Assembly (NCBI GenBank): GCA_025357545.1
Contig: JANXPB010000161.1
Span: 1 to 37,398 of the forward strand
Source of the DNA: Holophagaceae bacterium
Lineage (GTDB): Bacteria > Acidobacteriota > Holophagae > Holophagales > Holophagaceae
DNA: 37,398 nucleotides
Direction of reading: 5' to 3'
The position numbers and the translations under genes were made by a program. Below the pieces are notes generated by a model. That model was not told the DNA's origin, ran no database searches, and was given only the letters and a program-made list of their open reading frames with translations. Positions 20,474 to 32,498 of the stretch are shown here, piece after piece. The number at the start of each line of letters is the position of its first letter. Positions within the stretch are counted from its first letter, which is position 1.

Positions 20474-20827
20474 ATGCGAGGCTATGCCCCGATTCTGCTG
20501 CTTCTGCTCATTTCGATCGGAATGCCCCTGGTGGTCTGGGGTCTGTCCCGCATGCTTCGGCCCAGTGCTCCGAATGCGAACAAGTACATGGTTTATGAAT
20601 GCGGAATCACGCCCAGCACCGAAGCGCGCGAGAAATTTTCGGTACGCTACTACCTCGTCGCGGTGATGTTCCTCGTCTTCGATGTTGAGACGGTCTTCCT
20701 GATGCCCTGGGCCATCCAGATGAAGGAACTGGCCCTCTTCGGCCTGGTCGAAATGCTGTTCTTCCTGTTCTTGCTGTTGTTCGGCTATGGCTACATCTGG
20801 GCCAAAGGAGCTCTCACATGGGAATGA
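20474..20827 (+). CDS. nuoA: NADH-quinone oxidoreductase subunit A
   Basis: This 117-residue membrane subunit of complex I has three predicted helices. The conserved loop [20 protein letters not shown] and [15 protein letters not shown] are the family hallmarks. NuoA helps close the region between the quinone site and the proton channel. It is the first gene of the nuo operon, with ATG at 20474 and GGGAG upstream. The last 10 bp overlap nuoB. Confidence 0.96.
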
Positions 20828-21327
20828 ACGGTCCCGACGTCCTCGAACACATCCTCATCACCACCAAGGTCGAGAAAGTCATCAATTGGGCGCGGGCTTC
20901 CAGCGTCTGGCCCATGACCTTCGGCCTGGCCTGCTGCGCCATCGAGATGATGGCCGCTGGCGCTTCCAAATTCGATTTCGACCGCTTTGGCGCTGGCATC
21001 TTCCGGGCCACTCCCCGGCAGTCGGACCTCATGATCGTGGCGGGCACCGTGACCTACAAGATGGCGCCGGTGATCAAGAAACTCTACGACCAGATGCCCG
21101 AGCCCAAGTGGGTCATTGCTATGGGCAGCTGCGCCACCGCCGGAGGGCCCTTCGACAGCTACCACACCATCCAGGGCGTCGACAAAATCGTGCCCGTGGA
21201 CGTCTACATCCCTGGCTGCCCGCCGCGCCCTGAGAGCCTGATCTACGGATTCCTGAAGCTGCAGGACAAGATCATGACCAGCTCCATGGCGGACAAGTAC
21301 GCCGAGATCTTCGAAGCGGTGGGCTGA
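20818..21327 (+). CDS. nuoB: NADH-quinone oxidoreductase subunit B
   Basis: This 169-residue subunit carries cluster N2, the last [4Fe-4S] centre before quinone. The cysteine ligands are in [10 protein letters not shown] (the tandem Cys pair), [10 protein letters not shown] and [10 protein letters not shown]. All four are present, so the electron path to quinone looks intact. It overlaps nuoA by 10 bp and ends 2 bp before the fused nuoC gene. Confidence 0.97.
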
Positions 21328-21329
21328 CC

Positions 21330-22823
21330 ATGGCGATCACGAAGGTCTGGATCGAAGAGGGTTGCATCGTTTGCAACGCCTGCGAGGCCGAGTGCCCCGA
21401 TGTCTTCCACGTCACCGAAGACAGCTGTCATATCAAGGGCGATTCCCGCCAGGACGGTAGGGAAAGCGAGAACCGGGACGAGAAGGCCGAACTGAAGGCA
21501 GCCCTCCAGGCGAGCCTCGAGGACTCGATCATCGCTGCGGCCGCAGGCTGTCCCGTGGAGGTCATCAAGTACGATCAGGTGGCCAACGTGGCAGCCCCGG
21601 CTCCCGAACCCGCGGCGACTATTGCGGCACACTCAACCGCAATCGCACCGGATGTGGATATCGAAAACGCCGTGGATGCGGCTCTCGGCACTTCCGGCAC
21701 CACCGTCAGTGTGAGCGCCGCAGCCGCGGCCGCTGTGGCGGCGGCCACCGTCGCAGCGGAGCCCCCGGCGCTTGCTCCCACCGTCACAGCGGCCTCCGAA
21801 TCCACTGTTTCCGTGCCCGTGCCCGTGCTTGTGCCCATGGTCCCGGCCGCGACCACCTCCGCGCCTCCGGTCGCAGCGGCCTCGCAGGCCCCGGTGGAAA
21901 CGGTAAAACCTCGCGTCACCAAGGTCTGGATCGAAGAGGGCTGCATCGTGTGCAATGCCTGCGAGGCGGACAGCCCCGAGGTCTTCCACGTCACCGAAAC
22001 CACCTGCATGATCAAGCCCGGCGTGCGGCTGGATGGGCAGGAAACCGAGAACCGCCTCGAGAAGAATGGCCTCAAGCCTGCTGACGGCGAGCGGCTCATC
22101 GAGAGCATCATCGCGGCCGCCAAGGGCTGCCCGGTGGACGTCATCAAGTTTGAGGTCCTTGGCGAAGCGACGCCTGCGTCGCTTCCGGTGGTGGAAGCCA
22201 AACCCCATGCAGAAGGGATCGCCGCGGGCCCCTACGTTTTCGACTACAAGACTGCCCCCAACCGCCAGGTGGCCATGCCCAAGACCGTGCCCCTGCCGAG
22301 CTTCCACACCTACCAGGAAGAGCAGGAGGCCGCCGCTGCCGCCGATGAGGCCAAATGGACCAAGTCCCTGGCGGACTTCGAAACCGCCAAAACCAAAGCT
22401 GCCGCCGAGGGCAAGGAAGCCCCCAAGGCTCCGGTCAAGCCCGTCCCGAAGAAAAACGACACGGACATGGAATTCCCGGTTCCCGGGGAAGCCAAGGATC
22501 CCGACCTGTTGCACCTGGTCGAACTGCTCGACGGGAAGGTGTCCCAGGCCTTCGAACAGGCTGGAGAGCTGACCCTGCAAGTGCATCCCGACGGATTGCA
22601 GGAGGCCCTCATGTTCTGCAAGGGCGATGCGGCCCTTCGCTATGAGATGCTGGCGGACCAGACCGCTACCCACTTCCCGGCGGCGGAAGGCTTCGCCTTC
22701 TCGGTGGTCTACCACCTCACCTCCATCAGCCGCCGCAAACGATTGCGCATCCGCGTTCTTGTGAAGGAGGGCCAGGCCCTCGACAGCGCCGTGCAGATCT
22801 ACCCTTCCGCCAACTGGATGTAG
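21330..22823 (+). CDS. nuoC: Tandem-ferredoxin/NuoC fusion, interrupted by TAG
   Basis: This is 497 codons up to an in-frame TAG; reading through to 23054 would give 574 residues. Residues 1-84 are a mono-cluster ferredoxin domain with C12, C15, C18 and C74 as likely [4Fe-4S] ligands and extra C22 and C33. Residues 84-195 are an Ala/Pro/Val-rich linker. Residues 196-275 repeat the ferredoxin domain (C205, C208, C211, C267; the C22 equivalent is S215). A second charged, Lys/Ala-rich linker leads to the NuoC 30-kDa domain (about 385 on: FSVVYHLTSISRRKRLRIRV). Normal NuoC is about 150-220 residues without ferredoxin. TAG (codon 498) replaces the conserved Glu in [13 protein letters not shown]. 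NuoC normally bridges NuoD and NuoI/NuoB. With nuoEFG absent here, the ferredoxins may be the electron entry (inference). It could be a nonsense mutant, a sequencing error or stop readthrough. Confidence 0.9.
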   Translation: MAITKVWIEEGCIVCNACEAECPDVFHVTEDSCHIKGDSRQDGRESENRDEKAELKAALQASLEDSIIAAAAGCPVEVIKYDQVANVAAPAPEPAATIAAHSTAIAPDVDIENAVDAALGTSGTTVSVSAAAAAAVAAATVAAEPPALAPTVTAASESTVSVPVPVLVPMVPAATTSAPPVAAASQAPVETVKPRVTKVWIEEGCIVCNACEADSPEVFHVTETTCMIKPGVRLDGQETENRLEKNGLKPADGERLIESIIAAAKGCPVDVIKFEVLGEATPASLPVVEAKPHAEGIAAGPYVFDYKTAPNRQVAMPKTVPLPSFHTYQEEQEAAAAADEAKWTKSLADFETAKTKAAAEGKEAPKAPVKPVPKKNDTDMEFPVPGEAKDPDLLHLVELLDGKVSQAFEQAGELTLQVHPDGLQEALMFCKGDAALRYEMLADQTATHFPAAEGFAFSVVYHLTSISRRKRLRIRVLVKEGQALDSAVQIYPSANWM

Positions 22824-23054
22824 CGCGAGATCTTCGACATGTTCGGCATCCAGTTCAACGGCCACCCGGCCCTGACCCGGATCCTCTGCCCCGATGACTG
22901 GGAGGGCTTCCCGTTGCGCAAGGAGTACCCGACCTTGGGCCTGGGCCAGCGGGACATCGACTTCCGGGAGGACCGCTCGGGGGTGCTCATGCGGCTGGCC
23001 ATGGAAAAGGCCGGCAACGCGGGCATCAATTTGAAAGTCCCGAAAGCTGATTGA
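22824..23054 (+). pseudogene. nuoC: NuoC C-terminal segment after the amber codon
   Basis: This is in the same frame as the fusion and begins directly after TAG. It encodes [20 protein letters not shown] and then [13 protein letters not shown], the most conserved end of NuoC, which contacts NuoD. The first internal ATG is at 22839 (71 residues, MFGIQF...). No good ribosome-binding site precedes it, so separate translation seems unlikely, although termination-reinitiation 15 bases downstream of the stop is possible. The sequence shows no further decay, which argues for a recent change, an error or readthrough. Confidence 0.85.
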
Positions 23055-23079: not shown

Positions 23080-24180
23080 GTGTTCAAAACCGAGGAAATG
23101 GAAATCAACCTGGGCCCGCAGCACCCGTCCACCCACGGCGTGCTCAGGGTGAAGCTGCATTTGGACGGCGAGACCGTCACCCGCTGCGTCCCGATGATCG
23201 GCTACCTGCACCGGGGGGTCGAGAAGATCTGCGAGGACAAGACCTTCTTCCAGGGCCAGGTCTGGACGGACCGCACGGACTACGTGGCCGCCATCAGCAA
23301 CAACCTGGGCTGGGTCGAAGGGGTGGAGAAACTCTTCGGCATCACGACCCCACGCCGGGCCCACTACATCCGCACCATGCTCACGGAATTGAACCGCATC
23401 ACTTCGCATCTGCTGTGGCTGGGCACCCATGCCCTGGACATCGGCGCCATGACGGTCTTCCTCTACGCCTTCCGCGAACGCGAGGAAGTGCTCTCGATCT
23501 TCGAAGCCTTCTGCGGCGCCCGGCTGACCACCACCGCTTTCCGCATCGGCGGCCTGCGGGAGGACATCCCGCCAGGCTTCGAGAAGCAGGTCCGCGCCTT
23601 CCAGGCCCGCTTCCTCGACTGCATCGAGGAATACGAGACGCTCCTCACCGAGAACCGCATCTGGAAGAAGCGCACCATCGGTGTAGCTCCCCTCAACGCC
23701 GAGGACGCCATCGCTCTGGGTGTCACGGGCCCCGTGCTCCGGGCCGCGGGCTCCAGCTATGACATCCGCAAAGCATTCCCCTACGCCGCCTACGCGGAAA
23801 TGGACTTCGACGTGCCGACCCAGACCGCCGGGGACACCTACGCCCGGTACCTGGTCCGCCTCGCCGAGATGCGCCAGAGCCACCGTATCGTCAACCAATG
23901 CCTGGACGGGCTGCCCGAAGGCCCGGTGATGGCCAAGCTGCCCAAGGTGCTGAAGTCCGAAGTGAACGAGGTCTACCACGCCATCGAAGCTCCCAAAGGT
24001 GAGCTCGGTTACTACTTTATCGGTGAGAAGGGCAGCCAGAGCCCTTACCGCATGCACATCCGCGCACCATCCTTCATCAACCTCCAGGCCCTGCCCAAAA
24101 TGACCGAAGGCCGCCTGCTGGCGGACGTCATCGCCGCCATCGGCACGTTGGATGTGGTGCTCGGCGAGGTGGATCGATGA
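23080..24180 (+). CDS. nuoD: NADH-quinone oxidoreductase subunit D
   Basis: This 366-residue 49-kDa-type subunit, related to NiFe-hydrogenase large subunits, forms the quinone-binding cavity with NuoB and NuoH. Conserved parts are [47 protein letters not shown] and the C-terminal DVVLGEVDR ending. The start is GTG at 23080 with AGGAG upstream. It is full length and separate from NuoC (not a NuoCD fusion). Its last five codons lie inside the first copy of a 39-bp tandem repeat. Confidence 0.97.
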
Positions 24181-24258
24181 TCCCCGAGCTGTTTAACAAC
24201 GGCCGAGGTGGATCGATGATCCCCGAGCTGTTTAACAATGGCCGAGGTGGATCGATGA
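24166..24258 (+). repeat. 39-bp tandem repeat, 2.4 copies, between nuoD and nuoH
   Basis: Unit 1 is 24166-24204, unit 2 is 24205-24243, and a 15-base partial copy is 24244-24258. Units begin GAGGTGGATCGATGA and the two full copies differ at one base (AACAAC/AACAAT). Each unit repeats the nuoD end, an SD-like GAGGTGG and an ATG. Confidence 0.95.
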
Positions 24259-24272
24259 GGGCCCAACCATGA
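24177..24272 (+). CDS. Small ORF with a repeated 13-residue unit, coupled to nuoD and nuoH
   Basis: This 31-codon open frame made by the 39-bp repeat reads [13 protein letters not shown] twice, then MRAQP. Its ATG overlaps the nuoD stop (ATGA at 24177-24180) and its TGA overlaps the nuoH start (ATGA at 24269-24272). Each unit carries GAGGTGG four bases before its ATG. Whether it is translated is unknown. It may only relay ribosomes between nuoD and nuoH. It resembles no family I know. Confidence 0.4.
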
Positions 24273-25465
24273 TGCCGACTCTGACTCAATACCTGGTCAT
24301 CTCCCTGCTCCAGATCGTCGTGGTCCTGGGCTTCGTGATGACCCTGGTCCCCCTCCTCACCTTTGCCGAGCGCAAGGTCATCGCCTACGTGCAGGTGCGC
24401 CTGGGCGCCACCCGGGTGGCGGGCGGCCTGTGGGGGGCCCAGCAGGGCCGGCTCCATCAATCCCGCACCGTCACCGGCGGGTTGAACGGCCTCATGTGGT
24501 TCCTGGGCCGGGTGCCCGTGTTCTCCATCCTCCGCGGCCTGCCCATGTTCATCGCGGACGCCCTCAAGCTCCTCACCAAGGAAGACATCGTCCCGGCGAG
24601 CGCGGACAAGGCCGTTTTCGTGCTGTCCCCGGCCCTGGCTTTGGTGGCGGCCTTCACGGTGTTCGCTGCCATCAGCTTCGCGCCAGGCGCTCTGTTCGTG
24701 TTCCCCAAGGCGGTCCCCTTCCTGGGCGGGTTGCCTTTCAATGGGTTCCTCACGGATTTGAACGTCGGGCTGTTGTTCATTCTGGGCATCGCCAGTGTCG
24801 GGGTGTATGGCATCGTCCTGGGCGCCTGGGCCTCCAACTCCAAATACCCGCTCCTGGGCGGCCTCCGCAGCGCGGCCCAGATCGTCAGCTATGAAGTGCC
24901 GCTGACCCTCAGCCTCCTCGTGCCGGTGGTGCTGACGGGCTCGCTAAACTTCAACGAGATGAGCACGCGCATGGCCACGGATGTCCCCGCCAACGGGATG
25001 GTGGCAATCGGCCGGACCCTGATCATGTTCGTGGGCTTCTTCGTCTACACCACCTGCGGTTTCGCGGAGACCAACCGCACGCCTTTCGATCTGGCCGAAG
25101 CCGAAACCGAATTGGTGGCGGGCTTCCACACGGAATACACCGGCATGAAGTTCAGCTTCTTCTTCCTGGCGGAATATTCCTCGATGATCACGGTATCGGC
25201 CCTGGCCAGCGCCTTCTTCCTGGGGGGGCACCACCTGCTGCCCTTCGGTATCCAGGGGTTTGTGCACCTCAGCGGCTGGTGGGGCGGGCCGCATATCATC
25301 TTCTTCCTCTTCAAGATCTTCACATTGCTGTTCGTATTCCTGTGGGTGCGGGCCACGTTGCCGCGCTACCGCTACGACCAGCTCATGAACGTCGGCTGGA
25401 AGTTCCTGATCCCCTACACCCTGATCATGTTCGTCATCGCAGCCCTGCTGCGCTACGCGGCCTAA
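24269..25465 (+). CDS. nuoH: NADH-quinone oxidoreductase subunit H
   Basis: This 398-residue membrane subunit joins the quinone cavity to the proton pumps. Landmarks are LTFAERKVIAYVQVRLG, ADALKLLTKEDI and GFAETNRTPFDLAEAETELV (the acidic quinone-funnel loop), followed by GFHTEYTGMKF. It is longer than usual because about 34 extra residues lie between R49-V50 and I95, where most homologues have only about ten (RVGPxGLLQPxAD). The insert is basic and hydrophobic (for example VTGGLNGLMWFLGRVPVF). The start at 24269 overlaps the small repeat ORF. Confidence 0.96.
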   Translation: MMPTLTQYLVISLLQIVVVLGFVMTLVPLLTFAERKVIAYVQVRLGATRVAGGLWGAQQGRLHQSRTVTGGLNGLMWFLGRVPVFSILRGLPMFIADALKLLTKEDIVPASADKAVFVLSPALALVAAFTVFAAISFAPGALFVFPKAVPFLGGLPFNGFLTDLNVGLLFILGIASVGVYGIVLGAWASNSKYPLLGGLRSAAQIVSYEVPLTLSLLVPVVLTGSLNFNEMSTRMATDVPANGMVAIGRTLIMFVGFFVYTTCGFAETNRTPFDLAEAETELVAGFHTEYTGMKFSFFFLAEYSSMITVSALASAFFLGGHHLLPFGIQGFVHLSGWWGGPHIIFFLFKIFTLLFVFLWVRATLPRYRYDQLMNVGWKFLIPYTLIMFVIAALLRYAA

Positions 25466-25481
25466 CCACCTGAGGTCGACC

Positions 25482-25991
25482 ATGGCATCTTCACTGCTCC
25501 GCACCCTGATCCCCTTCGACATCTACGGAGGGATGAAGCTCACCGGAAAATATTTCGGCAAGGTGCTCCTACAGAGCAACCGCGGTACGAAGCGCACCCA
25601 TATCGTCGTGGAGTACCCCGAGACTCCCGTGACCCTGATGCCCCGCTACCGGGGCCGGCTCCAAATGATCAAGGACGAGCAGGGGGAGATCAAATGCGTG
25701 TGCTGCCTGGCCTGCGAAAAGATCTGCCCCACCCAGGTCATCACCATCGAGAAGGGCAAGAAGGAAGGGCGCAAGACGCCCTACCCGACCCGCTACGACT
25801 TCGAGATGGAGCGCTGCATCTTCTGTGAATTCTGCGTGGAGAGCTGTGGCTTCGATTCCATCATCCTGAACCACCAGTTCGAGCTGGCGGCCTACAACCG
25901 CGAGGACTTCTCCCATGGCACCGAAGGTGTGTTCCAGAACATGTACGACCTCACCCCCGTGGGTCACTATTCCGTCGCCAGCGAGGAATAG
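25482..25991 (+). CDS. nuoI: NADH-quinone oxidoreductase subunit I
   Basis: This 169-residue subunit carries clusters N6a and N6b, which pass electrons to N2 on NuoB. There are two [4Fe-4S] motifs: CVCCLACEKICP and CIFCEFCVESCGF. The second has Gly in place of the usual Pro after the fourth Cys. All eight ligands are present. In a complex without NuoEFG these are the nearest conventional clusters to which the NuoC-linked ferredoxins could donate (inference). Confidence 0.96.
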   Translation: MASSLLRTLIPFDIYGGMKLTGKYFGKVLLQSNRGTKRTHIVVEYPETPVTLMPRYRGRLQMIKDEQGEIKCVCCLACEKICPTQVITIEKGKKEGRKTPYPTRYDFEMERCIFCEFCVESCGFDSIILNHQFELAAYNREDFSHGTEGVFQNMYDLTPVGHYSVASEE

Positions 25992-26042: not shown

Positions 26043-26591
26043 ATGGAACAACTCCTCGCCAGTCTGGGCCAGAACCTCTTCGTGCTCTTCGGCCTCCTGG
26101 CCGTGGGGGCCGCCGGGGTCATGATCTTCACCAAGAGCGCGGTGCACAGCGTCATCGGCTTCCTGTTCTCGATGCTTTGCGTGGCGGGCTGCTTCCTGGC
26201 CCTCCAGGCTGAGTTCCTGGGCGTGGCGCAACTCCTAGTCTACGCGGGCGGCATCGTGGTGCTCTTCCTCTTCGTCGTGATGCTCGTGGAGCTCACCAAG
26301 TACCAGGAAAAGGGCATCTTCCAAACCCAAGCCAAGTTCGCAGTGCCCCTTGTCGGTGCCGGCGTGCTCGCCTTCGCGGGCGTCTTCCGGGGCATCCTGT
26401 TCGGCCCCAACGCCGGCCAGGCCCTGGTCCTGAAGCTGGGGCTCGAAGGCGCCACCGAGCACCTGGGCAACGCGCAGGCGGTGAGCCGCGGGCTTTTCGC
26501 GGACTTCCTCCTGCCCTTCGAAATTCTCTCCGTGATCCTGCTCGTGGCCCTCATCGGAGCCATCGTGCTGGCGAAATCGGAACGGGTCTAG
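26043..26591 (+). CDS. nuoJ: NADH-quinone oxidoreductase subunit J
   Basis: This 182-residue membrane subunit has about five helices. The conserved third helix is seen in EFLGVAQLLVYAGGIVVLFLFV, whose pi-bulge region takes part in coupling. ATG at 26043 and a TAG stop. It is part of the continuous nuo operon. Confidence 0.95.
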   Translation: MEQLLASLGQNLFVLFGLLAVGAAGVMIFTKSAVHSVIGFLFSMLCVAGCFLALQAEFLGVAQLLVYAGGIVVLFLFVVMLVELTKYQEKGIFQTQAKFAVPLVGAGVLAFAGVFRGILFGPNAGQALVLKLGLEGATEHLGNAQAVSRGLFADFLLPFEILSVILLVALIGAIVLAKSERV

Positions 26592-26943: not shown

Positions 26944-29271
26944 ATGAGCATGGAACACGTCGCAAGTCACGCCCTGGAGGCCGTCGGCGCCGCGAGCACG
27001 GCCAGCGGGATCCTGTGGCTCATCCCCTTCCTGCCCCTTTTCGGCTTCCTCATCAACGGCCTGAGCGGACGCCGCCTCAAGAGCAACAAGGTCGTCGATG
27101 CCATCGCCCTGGGCTCCGTGGGCATCTCCTTCCTGCTGGCGGTCTACTGCTTCTTCCAGCTGGTGGGTTTGCCGGAGAACTCCCGCTCCCTCCACCAGGA
27201 CCTATGGACCTGGTTCAGCCTGGGTGGCGCGCGGGTCTTCGGGGGCCTCAGCACCGCGACGGTGAAGTGGGCCTACAAGTTCGACGTGCTCAGCGGCGCC
27301 ATGACCCTGTTGGTGACCGGCGCGGGCTTCCTGATCCACCTGTTCAGCACCGGCTACATGGCCGAGGAGCGCAACGACGGTCGCTACTACCGGTTCATGG
27401 CCTATCTCAACCTCTTCGTGTTCTCCATGCTGAACCTGGTGCTGGGCGCCAACATCCTGATGATGTTCCTGGGCTGGGAGGGTGTGGGCCTATGCTCTTA
27501 CCTGCTCGTCGGCTTCTACTTCGACAAGGAATACGCCGCGGTCGCCGCCAAGAAGGCCTTCGTCACCAACCGCGTGGGTGACTTCGGATTCATGATCGGC
27601 TTCTTCCTGTTGATCATGCTGTTCGGCACCTTGGATTACGACACCATGATGGGCATGGTCCGCGGTGTCAGCGGAATGCAGGCCATCACGCTCTTTGGCC
27701 ACACCGCTACCCCTACTTTCTGGTTCAACCTAATCGGCTGCTGCCTCTTCGTCGGCGCCGCCGGCAAATCCGCGCAGCTCCCGCTCTACGTCTGGCTGCC
27801 GGATGCCATGGCGGGCCCCACGCCGGTCAGCGCGCTGATCCACGCGGCCACCATGGTGACCTCCGGCCTCTACATGATCACCCGGCTCAACTTCATCTAC
27901 GTGCAAGCGCCGGTGGCGCTGTCCTTGGTGCTGCTGGTGGGCTCCCTTACCGCGCTCTTCGCCGCCACCATGGGCCTGGCCCAGTACGACATCAAGAAGG
28001 TGCTGGCCTATTCCACCGTGTCCCAGTTGGGCTTCATGTTCATGGGCCTTGGGGCGGGAGCCTTCACCGCGGGCATGTTCCATGTCTTCACCCACGCGGC
28101 CTTCAAAGCCTGCCTGTTTCTTGGTTCCGGCTCGGTCATCGCCGCCTGCCACCACGAGCAGGATATGCGGAACATGGGCGGACTGCGGAAGTACATGCCC
28201 TGGACCTTCGCGAGCATGGCCATCGCCACCGTCGCCATCGCGGGCGTGCCTCCCTTCTCGGGCTTTTTCTCGAAGGACGAAATCCTTTGGAAGGTCTTCG
28301 AGCATGGTTGGAAGGGAGAGGGTTCCTTCTACTACTTCTGCTGGGGCATGGGCATGCTGGCGGCCTTCTGCACGGCCTTCTACATGGTCCGGCTCATGGC
28401 CATGACCTTCTTCGGTGAATACCGCGGGGACGGGAACGATCCATTCGGCCTGACCGTGCCCAGCGAAGCCCATCACGGCGCCGATGATCATGGCCACGAC
28501 GACCACCTCGATCACAGCGACCTCGCTCACGCCGATGCCCATCTCGACGCGCACACCGACCACGGCCAGCTGGCCCCCAGTCATGACGATCTCACCCACG
28601 GTGGCCATGACGCGCACGGAGACCATGGCCACGGCCCGGCTGAGGTGCCCTGGAACATGTGGGTGCCCGTGTTCATTTTCGCGGCGCTGGCGGCGGTCTT
28701 CGGCTTTGTGAATCTGCCTCCGAGCTTGGGGGGCGGCGAGCTGTTCACCAAGTGGCTGGAGCCCATCCTGTATCAGGTGGCTCCTTCGGGCCATCATGCG
28801 GCTGAATCCATCGAGTACAAACTCATGGGCTTCGCGATCCTCTGGGCGCTCAGCGCCATGGGGCTGGCCTGGTGGATGTACGGCGCCGATGAGAGCTGGA
28901 GCCGCGCCAAGGCCTTCGTGGTCCGCTTTCCCCAAGTGTTCGAGTGGGTGAACGCCAAGTACTACGTGGATGAGTTCTACGACGCGATGGTCATCAACCC
29001 CATCAAGCAGCTCTCGGCGCAGCTCTGGAGCTTCGATGTATGGGTGCTGGATGGCGCGGTCAACGGCGCGGCGCGATTCACGGTGATCCTGGCCGAGGCC
29101 AGCAACTGGTTCGACGCCAAGGTAGTGGACGGCCTCGTGAACCTGGTGGCCTGGACGCTGCAGCAGGGAGCGATGGGCTTCAAGACGCTGCAAAGCGGCA
29201 AGGTGCAGAACTACGCCTTCGTGATGATTCTCGGTTTCCTGGTCTTCGCCTTTTGGAAATTCCTCGCCTGA
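26944..29271 (+). CDS. nuoL: NADH-quinone oxidoreductase subunit L with His-rich insert
   Basis: This 775-residue distal antiporter-like proton pump is longer than the usual 610-660. The core is well conserved: FLGWEGVGLCSYLLVGFY, SAQLPLYVWLPDAMAGPTPV, HAATMVTSGLYMI and THAAFKACLFLGSG. An extra loop of about 55 residues (around 28465-28645) is rich in His and Asp, with about 16 His (for example DDHGHDDHLDHSDLAH). The C-terminal lateral helix and anchor are present (KYYVDEFYDAMVINPIKQL onward). ATG at 26944. Confidence 0.96.
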   Translation: MSMEHVASHALEAVGAASTASGILWLIPFLPLFGFLINGLSGRRLKSNKVVDAIALGSVGISFLLAVYCFFQLVGLPENSRSLHQDLWTWFSLGGARVFGGLSTATVKWAYKFDVLSGAMTLLVTGAGFLIHLFSTGYMAEERNDGRYYRFMAYLNLFVFSMLNLVLGANILMMFLGWEGVGLCSYLLVGFYFDKEYAAVAAKKAFVTNRVGDFGFMIGFFLLIMLFGTLDYDTMMGMVRGVSGMQAITLFGHTATPTFWFNLIGCCLFVGAAGKSAQLPLYVWLPDAMAGPTPVSALIHAATMVTSGLYMITRLNFIYVQAPVALSLVLLVGSLTALFAATMGLAQYDIKKVLAYSTVSQLGFMFMGLGAGAFTAGMFHVFTHAAFKACLFLGSGSVIAACHHEQDMRNMGGLRKYMPWTFASMAIATVAIAGVPPFSGFFSKDEILWKVFEHGWKGEGSFYYFCWGMGMLAAFCTAFYMVRLMAMTFFGEYRGDGNDPFGLTVPSEAHHGADDHGHDDHLDHSDLAHADAHLDAHTDHGQLAPSHDDLTHGGHDAHGDHGHGPAEVPWNMWVPVFIFAALAAVFGFVNLPPSLGGGELFTKWLEPILYQVAPSGHHAAESIEYKLMGFAILWALSAMGLAWWMYGADESWSRAKAFVVRFPQVFEWVNAKYYVDEFYDAMVINPIKQLSAQLWSFDVWVLDGAVNGAARFTVILAEASNWFDAKVVDGLVNLVAWTLQQGAMGFKTLQSGKVQNYAFVMILGFLVFAFWKFLA

Positions 29272-29295: not shown

Positions 29296-30969
29296 ATGAG
29301 CGGTTCAACCCAACTGATGCTTTTGGCCACCTTCCTGCCTCTGCTGGGGGGCCTGGGCCTGCTCTTCGTCCCCAACGAAAAGCGGGAGGTTTTCCAGAAG
29401 GCCTCCGTGGCCATCATGGTCGCCAGCTTCCTCTTGAGTGTGCCGCTCTGGTTCCAATACGACCGCGGCAGCGACGCCGTCCAGTTCGCCTATCAATGCG
29501 CCTGGATGCCGAGCCTCGGCGTGAAGTTCAGTGTGGGCATGGACGGCATCAGCCTGCTGCTCTGGCTCCTCACCACCTTCATCGGACCCATCGGTGCGCT
29601 CTGCTCGTGGGGCAACATCGATGAACGCTGGAAGGAGTACTACGTTTGGCTACTGGTACTCCAGACCGCCATGCTCGCGGTCTTCATCGCCCAGGATATG
29701 TTCCTGTTCTACATTGTCTGGGAAGTGATGCTGGTGCCCATGTACTTCCTCATCGGCATCTGGGGCGGCCCGCAAAAGCTCTACGCCGCCATCAAGCTTT
29801 TCCTCTATACCCTGGCGGGCTCGGTGCTGATGCTCGTGGCGATCTTCGCCATCTACTTCCTGCAACACAAGACCAGCGGCGTTTACGATTTCTCCCTGGC
29901 GGGTTTCCAGGCCATGGCGCCGGTGATCGCGCAGCAGACGAAGACCTTCCAGATTCTTCTGGCCCTGGCCTTCTTCCTGGCCTTCGCGATCAAGGTCCCG
30001 ATGTTCCCCTTCCACACCTGGCTGCCGGACGCCCACGTGCAGGCGCCCACGGCGGGTTCCGTGATCCTGGCGGGCATCCTGCTGAAGATGGGCACATACG
30101 GTTTTGTGCGCTTCCTGCTGCCCATCGTCCCCGAGGGAACCAAGGAACTGATGCCCTGGTTCCTGGCCCTGGCTCTTATCGGTGTCATTTACGGCGCTCT
30201 GGTGGCCATGATCCAAAAGGACATGAAGAAACTCGTGGCCTATTCCTCCGTGAGCCACTTGGGGCTCTGCATGTTGGGCATCTTTGCCCTTAACCCCTGG
30301 GGCATGAAGGGCGCGCTGTTTCAGATGTTGAACCACGGCATCTCAACGCCGGGACTATTCCTCGCGGTGGGCATCGTGTACGAGCGCCGCCACACCCGGC
30401 AGATCGCGGACTACGGCGGACTTTCGAAGACCATGCCGATCTACGCGACCATTTTTATGCTGATGACCATGAGCAGCATCGGATTGCCCCTGCTCAACGG
30501 TTTCATCGGAGAAGCCACCATCCTTATGGGCACCTTCCAGACCTGGCCCTGGGTGGCGGTGGCGGCCACGTCCGGCATCATCCTGGGCGCGGCCTACATG
30601 CTCTGGATGTACCAGCGCGTGATGTTCGGACCCATCTCCGAGGTGAACACCAAGATGGAGGATTTGAACTTGCGGGAGATCACCTACTTTGCGCCGTTGC
30701 TGATCACGGCGGTCTGGATCGGCCTCTACCCCAAGCCCTTCATGGACATCATGGACAAGCCCGTGGCCAAGCTCATCCAGCAGGTGCGGCCGGACTTCTA
30801 CCGGGCCGAATCCCTGGCCATGAAGCAGGCCGAAGCCGCGAAGGTGGGCATGCACGCCATGGAAGCGCCCGAAGGGGAAGGTCATCAGGCCAAGCCTGAG
30901 GGGCATGAGGCCAAGCCCGAAGGTCATGGGGCTGAAACCGGCGCCGCGACTCCTGGGGGAGGTCACTGA
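29296..30969 (+). CDS. nuoM: NADH-quinone oxidoreductase subunit M
   Basis: This 557-residue antiporter-like proton pump is longer than usual by its tail. Landmarks are YIVWEVMLVPMYFLIG (membrane Glu), IKVPMFPFHTWLPDAHVQAP and AYSSVSHLGLC. The last 40 residues are hydrophilic and His-rich, with an imperfect repeat GHQAKPE/GHEAKPE/GHGAETG. The stop TGA shares its last base with the nuoN start. Confidence 0.96.
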   Translation: MSGSTQLMLLATFLPLLGGLGLLFVPNEKREVFQKASVAIMVASFLLSVPLWFQYDRGSDAVQFAYQCAWMPSLGVKFSVGMDGISLLLWLLTTFIGPIGALCSWGNIDERWKEYYVWLLVLQTAMLAVFIAQDMFLFYIVWEVMLVPMYFLIGIWGGPQKLYAAIKLFLYTLAGSVLMLVAIFAIYFLQHKTSGVYDFSLAGFQAMAPVIAQQTKTFQILLALAFFLAFAIKVPMFPFHTWLPDAHVQAPTAGSVILAGILLKMGTYGFVRFLLPIVPEGTKELMPWFLALALIGVIYGALVAMIQKDMKKLVAYSSVSHLGLCMLGIFALNPWGMKGALFQMLNHGISTPGLFLAVGIVYERRHTRQIADYGGLSKTMPIYATIFMLMTMSSIGLPLLNGFIGEATILMGTFQTWPWVAVAATSGIILGAAYMLWMYQRVMFGPISEVNTKMEDLNLREITYFAPLLITAVWIGLYPKPFMDIMDKPVAKLIQQVRPDFYRAESLAMKQAEAAKVGMHAMEAPEGEGHQAKPEGHEAKPEGHGAETGAATPGGGH

Positions 30970-32498
30970 TGCCCTCCTTTTCCGCGGGGCTGTGGGAGAA
31001 CCTCAGCCACGATATCCATTATATCTGGCCCCACATCCTGTTGATGGTCGCGGCCACCCTGATGCTGTGGCCCCTGGACAGCTGGCTGATGCCCTGGACC
31101 AAGGCCGAGAAACACAAATGGGCGCTGCCCACTTTGGCGATCCTGGTGGCCACCCTGGGGCTCACCCTCGCCACGCCCAATGGCTTGGGCTTCTCCGCCA
31201 TGTACAAGGTGGACGGTCTCACCAAGGGCTTCCAGGTGCTCTGCATCTTGGGCTCCATCTTCGCGGTGATGCTGAGCCAGAATGTTCTGGGCGCGCTGCA
31301 AGAACACACCGTCGAGTACTACGTCCTGATCCTGTTGGGCACCAGCGGCATGCTTTTCATGTGCGGGGCGGTGGATTTGGTGACCGTTTATTTCTCCATT
31401 GAATTGATGGCGCTCTGCATCTACATCCTGGTGGCCTACCTTCGCCACCAGGGCCGCTCCATCGAAGCGGGCATGAAGTACTTCCTGCTGGGAGCCTTCT
31501 CCAGCGGCATCCTGCTCTACGGCATTTCGCTGCTCTTCGCCGCGACGGGAGGCGTCACCACCAACCTGACGGAGCTGAACCAGAAGCTCGCCTTGGTGTC
31601 CGCGGACAAGAACCTGCTGGTCTATTCCGGCGTGCTGATGGTCCTGGTGGGCCTCTGCTTCAAAGTGGCGGCGGTGCCCTTCCATATGTGGGCGCCGGAC
31701 GCCTACGATGGCGCGCCCACGCCCATCACCGCCTGGATGGCCACGGCGCCTAAGGCCGCATCCCTGGCGGTTTTCCTAAGGGTCTTCGACACAGGCTTTC
31801 ATAATCTTTCCTACGACTGGACCGCGCCGCTGATGGTTATTTCCGCCGCCAGCATGATCCTGGGCAACGTGGCGGCCATCCGGCAGCAGAGCATAAAACG
31901 CCTGCTGGCCTACTCCTCCATCGCCCACGTGGGCTACATGCTTCTGGGGGTGCTGAGCAAGGATGCCCAAGCCGGCGCCCAAGCCGTGTGGCTCTACATG
32001 CTGTCCTACCTGGTGATGAATACCGGCGCCTTCGCGGTCGTCATCTACCTCCAGGGCAAGGGTGAAGGCGAGCGCATCGACGATTTCCGCGGCATGGGGA
32101 AGCGTCATCCGCTGTTGGCCTTCGCCATGCTGATCTTCCTGCTGAGCTTGGCGGGCATCCCGCCCCTCATCGGGTTCTTCGGGAAGTTCTACCTCTTCCT
32201 ACTGGCGGTGCAACAGGGTTTCACCACCCTGGTGGTCATCGCGCTGCTGACCTCCGCCGTGAGTGCTTACTACTACCTGGAAGTCGTCAAACAAATGTAC
32301 TTCAAGGAGCCCGCCACTGAGGATGGGGCTGAATGCGAGCCCATGGATCCCTACGCGAAATGGCTCATCACCGCGGCCTGCACCCTGGTGATCATCGGCA
32401 CGGCCTTCGGTCCTCAGTTGCTGAAATGGACCGATGACATCCGCTGGTTCGAAAAGGAGGCCCCCAAGGCCGCCGTGTTTGAGCTTCCGGGCAAGTAG
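30969..32498 (+). CDS. nuoN: NADH-quinone oxidoreductase subunit N
   Basis: This 509-residue third antiporter-like subunit shows FKVAAVPFHMWAPDAYDGAP, AYSSIAHVGYMLLG and SLAGIPPLIGFFGKFYLF, all typical of NuoN. It starts at the last base of the nuoM stop (TGATG). It is the last gene of the operon and is followed by a strong terminator. No nuoE, nuoF or nuoG follows. Confidence 0.96.
   Translation: MPSFSAGLWENLSHDIHYIWPHILLMVAATLMLWPLDSWLMPWTKAEKHKWALPTLAILVATLGLTLATPNGLGFSAMYKVDGLTKGFQVLCILGSIFAVMLSQNVLGALQEHTVEYYVLILLGTSGMLFMCGAVDLVTVYFSIELMALCIYILVAYLRHQGRSIEAGMKYFLLGAFSSGILLYGISLLFAATGGVTTNLTELNQKLALVSADKNLLVYSGVLMVLVGLCFKVAAVPFHMWAPDAYDGAPTPITAWMATAPKAASLAVFLRVFDTGFHNLSYDWTAPLMVISAASMILGNVAAIRQQSIKRLLAYSSIAHVGYMLLGVLSKDAQAGAQAVWLYMLSYLVMNTGAFAVVIYLQGKGEGERIDDFRGMGKRHPLLAFAMLIFLLSLAGIPPLIGFFGKFYLFLLAVQQGFTTLVVIALLTSAVSAYYYLEVVKQMYFKEPATEDGAECEPMDPYAKWLITAACTLVIIGTAFGPQLLKWTDDIRWFEKEAPKAAVFELPGK

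Follow-up and report, generated by a model that had tools for sequence, protein, structure and literature searches.

A lone in-frame TAG in nuoC of a Holophagaceae draft genome is probably a consensus error or a very recent nonsense mutation

Complex I-like enzymes that lack NuoEFG have been described in Desulfitobacterium hafniense, whose enzyme has 11 subunits and for which separate ferredoxins are the proposed donors (PMC11238625). The operon that we analyzed here is similar in having nuoA-D and nuoH-N type genes with no adjacent NADH module. It differs in that ferredoxin-like domains are fused to NuoC itself. The nuoC gene of this operon also carries an in-frame TAG. In-frame UAG codons in conserved genes are known from UAG reassignment and amber suppression, which involve a tRNA-CUA or the pyrrolysine system, and lone nonsense codons are known from draft and metagenome-assembled genomes (MAGs).

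The window, that is, the whole 37,398-nucleotide stretch of DNA analyzed, is contig C83 of a 239-contig, 3.27-Mb draft genome of Holophagaceae (Acidobacteriota). This metagenome-type draft (G000) is 96% complete and 2% contaminated. The operon order is nuoA, B, C, D, H, I, J, K, L, M, N, with nuoK named from its position and size. Its features are as follows:

20474..20827, + strand: nuoA (Oxidored_q4), intact
20818..21327, + strand: nuoB (Oxidored_q6), intact
21330..22823, + strand: nuoC as it would be annotated, comprising two N-terminal ferredoxin-like domains fused to the initial two thirds of NuoC and truncated by the TAG
22821..22823, + strand: in-frame TAG in place of the Glu codon of relatives (the ERE signature's first Glu)
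22824..23054, + strand: distal NuoC coding sequence cut off by the TAG (76 codons plus TGA), with persisting purifying selection
23080..24180, + strand: nuoD (Complex1_49kDa), intact
24269..25465, + strand: nuoH (NADHdh), intact
25482..25991, + strand: nuoI-like 4Fe-4S protein, intact, with TAG as its own terminator
26043..26591, + strand: nuoJ (Oxidored_q3), intact, with TAG as its own terminator
26944..29271, + strand: nuoL-like antiporter subunit, intact
29296..32498, + strand: two further Proton_antipo_M subunits (nuoM- and nuoN-like), intact

The two ferredoxin-like domains, CIVCNACEAECP and CIVCNACEADSP, make up the N-terminus of NuoC (window positions 21330-22400). This fusion, in an operon without NuoEFG, is common to several Holophagaceae, and the Ser in the second ferredoxin-like motif, CIVCNACEADSP, is conserved in genus relatives. 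The fused domains may give an 11-subunit complex I an integral ferredoxin input. Between nuoD and nuoH lies a tandem repeat of 39 bases (2.4 copies; window positions 24165-24258), which starts within the end of nuoD. We considered this repeat as a possible sign of misassembly and rejected that reading because relatives have related spacers: those of three of the four sister species resemble the window repeat while differing from it.

The nuoC frame runs from ATG 21330 to the TAG at 22821-22823 (codon 498) and then stays open to the TGA at 23052. No second stop or frameshift occurs before that TGA; the original prediction correctly described a single-base nonsense change and a gene with no other damage. 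The TAG splits the PF00329 (Complex1_30kDa) domain, with model positions 2-82 before it and 84-120 after it. When the stop is read as X, the protein passes TIGR01961 (129.2 bits; cut-off 122.45) and scores 132.8 bits against PF00329. The gene product thus has the Complex1_30kDa domain of NuoC, and its open reading frame is broken at the ERE signature.

The interrupted position is highly conserved. A whole-genome profile search returned one TAG inside the window NuoC match and no internal stop in any other NuoC among the matches listed from 60 relatives. The original prediction had placed the TAG at a conserved Glu and proposed comparing close relatives at this codon. That comparison bears it out, with Glu in all relatives compared: the codon is GAG in 16 and GAA in 3 of 19 family relatives with whole genomes, and a separate scan of Genome Taxonomy Database (GTDB) contigs found Glu at 19/19 loci. 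Note that these two sets of 19 overlap and come partly from the same genomes. The GTDB scan, which leaves out the window's own genome, contained no same-species copy of nuoC. The Glu is also kept in solved complex I structures, both bacterial and mitochondrial (NDUFS3). The observation thus holds and is not due to chance.

The sequence beyond the TAG has remained constrained. Compared with G001 and G002, dN/dS in nuoC is ~0.05 upstream of the TAG and ~0.06 downstream. This similarity means that any loss must be recent and excludes a long decay; selection acted on the distal segment over almost the whole branch. NuoC also departs from the family at two conserved sites (columns 120 and 126) no more than 16 codons beyond the TAG, a proximity with a chance probability of 0.047. 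These changes fit a consensus of poor local quality or a gene whose constraint was relaxed very recently.

These observations bear on whether nuoC is an established pseudogene in a complex I operon undergoing loss. The genome does have a second complex I set (NuoB, NuoC, NuoD, and NuoF on contig C226), so loss of the window NuoC need not be lethal, and the premise of the original prediction that such a loss would be intolerable is weak. Genuinely decayed genes also exist elsewhere in the genome. An old yellow enzyme (OYE)-type flavin reductase (L099:16500-17700; G000:C139) has a TAG and a frameshift, and an ABC ATPase/permease pair (L145:4700-6500; G000:C126) is interrupted, with a frameshift or eroded motifs; all of these look like true pseudogenes. 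However, nuoC has neither a frameshift nor a second stop, its dN/dS after the TAG shows no relaxed selection, and the other complex I genes examined match their families well. We therefore regard an established pseudogene as very improbable.

Alternatively, translation might end at 22821 and resume at ATG 22839, so that NuoC is made in two pieces that still assemble. The ATG is there, in frame and 15 bases 3' of the TAG, as the original prediction had pointed out. However, it encodes the conserved Met of 'DM(F/L)G' found in every relative, no Shine-Dalgarno sequence is evident in GCGCGAGATCTTCGAC directly before it, and the cut falls inside a conserved domain. A restart here would yield a fragment of only 71 residues. 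Reinitiation is accordingly the explanation in which we place almost no confidence.

Readthrough of UAG, whether by a suppressor tRNA that the assembly lacks or by leaky near-cognate reading, would produce a full-length NuoC along with other TAG-interrupted proteins. The nuoC UAG is followed by C, and C after UAG is a weak termination context. The translation apparatus argues against this reading. Release factor 1 (RF1; L104) is present with its GGQ and PxT motifs, as is RF2 (L103) with GGQ. TAG is the terminator of 239 of the 967 predicted genes in the sample (~25%), among them nuoI and nuoJ of the nuoC operon. A covariance search of the whole assembly, which is incomplete, found no tRNA-CUA among 38 tRNAs, and the genome has no match to PylS (TIGR02367). 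Since some essential tRNAs are also absent from the assembly (there is no His and no Ile-GAU, for example), this absence of a suppressor is not proof. We read an ARAGORN match whose loop is unusual (L102) and a surplus Ala-CGC match (L235) as likely false positives arising in GC-rich sequence. Nothing in the genome indicates UAG reassignment: we found neither a tRNA-CUA, nor RF1 loss or TAG avoidance, nor replacement of a single amino acid. Dedicated recoding, including by a pyrrolysine system, is not supported.

We asked how often such stops occur by codon-likelihood scans of 1.375 Mb (42% of the genome), reviewing the candidates by eye and setting aside gene boundaries and antisense frames. 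Four more conserved genes, otherwise open, have a single in-frame TAG:

G000:C60:14904-15740: ArsM-like methyltransferase, Tyr in genus relatives
G000:C37:505-1893: BBP2 porin, Trp in four relatives
G000:C89:872-1621: LytTR response regulator, Leu in all relatives and paralogues compared
G000:C193:11487-12176: hypothetical membrane protein, Trp, Phe, or Tyr in relatives

The relatives compared lack TAG at these sites, and a further short TAG candidate (L179:171) stands outside the four counted. No lone TAA or TGA was accepted in the 1.375-Mb census. Shadow frames dominated a tblastn census run on unfiltered frames; when restricted to codon-score-selected genes, the census left two real interruptions, in NuoC and in the decayed ABC gene, within the sampled overlap. 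The ABC-domain family has one TAG among its 46 matches in this genome and no stop among the matches listed from four sister genomes. A homology control on 0.4 Mb of the sister species G002 found one real lone TAG, at a Trp site (L189:7533; G002:C133). The gene concerned encodes a Ser/Thr kinase with a beta-propeller domain.

Including nuoC, all five lone stops are TAG, a point against random change, which predicts a TAG share of 57%. The probability of this outcome (P ~ 0.06) is only indicative, given classification by eye and an incomplete sample, and the TAG excess is weak. The clearly decayed genes also carry TAG, again a point against random change. The five TAGs and the lone TAG in G002 speak for readthrough. 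However, the sites correspond to Glu, Tyr, Trp, Leu, and an aromatic residue, so no single suppressor amino acid could restore them all, and TAG is absent from the relatives at these positions. We consider readthrough unlikely. We find quite improbable a related reading, in which in-frame UAG is tolerated in this genus because termination is leaky or a suppressor escaped assembly, and UAG nonsense alleles accumulate in real genes while UAG stays an ordinary terminator.

The options set out in the original prediction (sequencing error, fresh nonsense mutation, suppression or readthrough, and reinitiation) were sound. As no suppressor tRNA was found in the assembled genome and TAG is a normal terminator, suppression and reinitiation are unsupported, leaving error or fresh nonsense mutation. 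We infer that the TAG is one of these two and not something decoded. Different residues replaced through different base changes are the pattern expected of random errors or mutations. The nuoC TAG is thus most probably an isolated single-base nonsense change in the draft consensus. A consensus or assembly error, or a base from a minority strain, is about an even call on its own, and a real, very recent mutation in the strain is a tentative but credible reading. Ribosomes would treat the TAG as a stop and make a NuoC without the last third of its domain.

If all five lone TAGs were consensus errors, the implied substitution rate would be ~1.6 × 10−4 per base. Error rates above 10−4 are high for well-covered short-read contigs, and we judge a rate of 1.6 × 10−4 possible in thinly covered draft contigs. 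We found no usable nonsense rates for MAGs in the literature. If the TAG is an error or a fresh mutation, its message is only a caution on inferring function from a draft genome. Should a complete genome from the lineage confirm the excess of TAG among lone stops, natural leakiness of UAG alongside a functional RF1 would be indicated and would merit study.

Like the described cases of UAG reassignment and amber suppression, this genome has in-frame UAG codons in conserved genes. It differs from them in its regular use of UAG for termination and its intact RF1; our searches found neither a tRNA-CUA nor PylS, and UAG replaces several kinds of residue. Compared with lone nonsense codons in draft genomes and MAGs, the one difference is that the five cases here are all TAG, slightly above the codon-usage prediction and not statistically firm. 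The likenesses are a single base change, an intact and constrained frame, absence in relatives, and several unrelated cases per genome.
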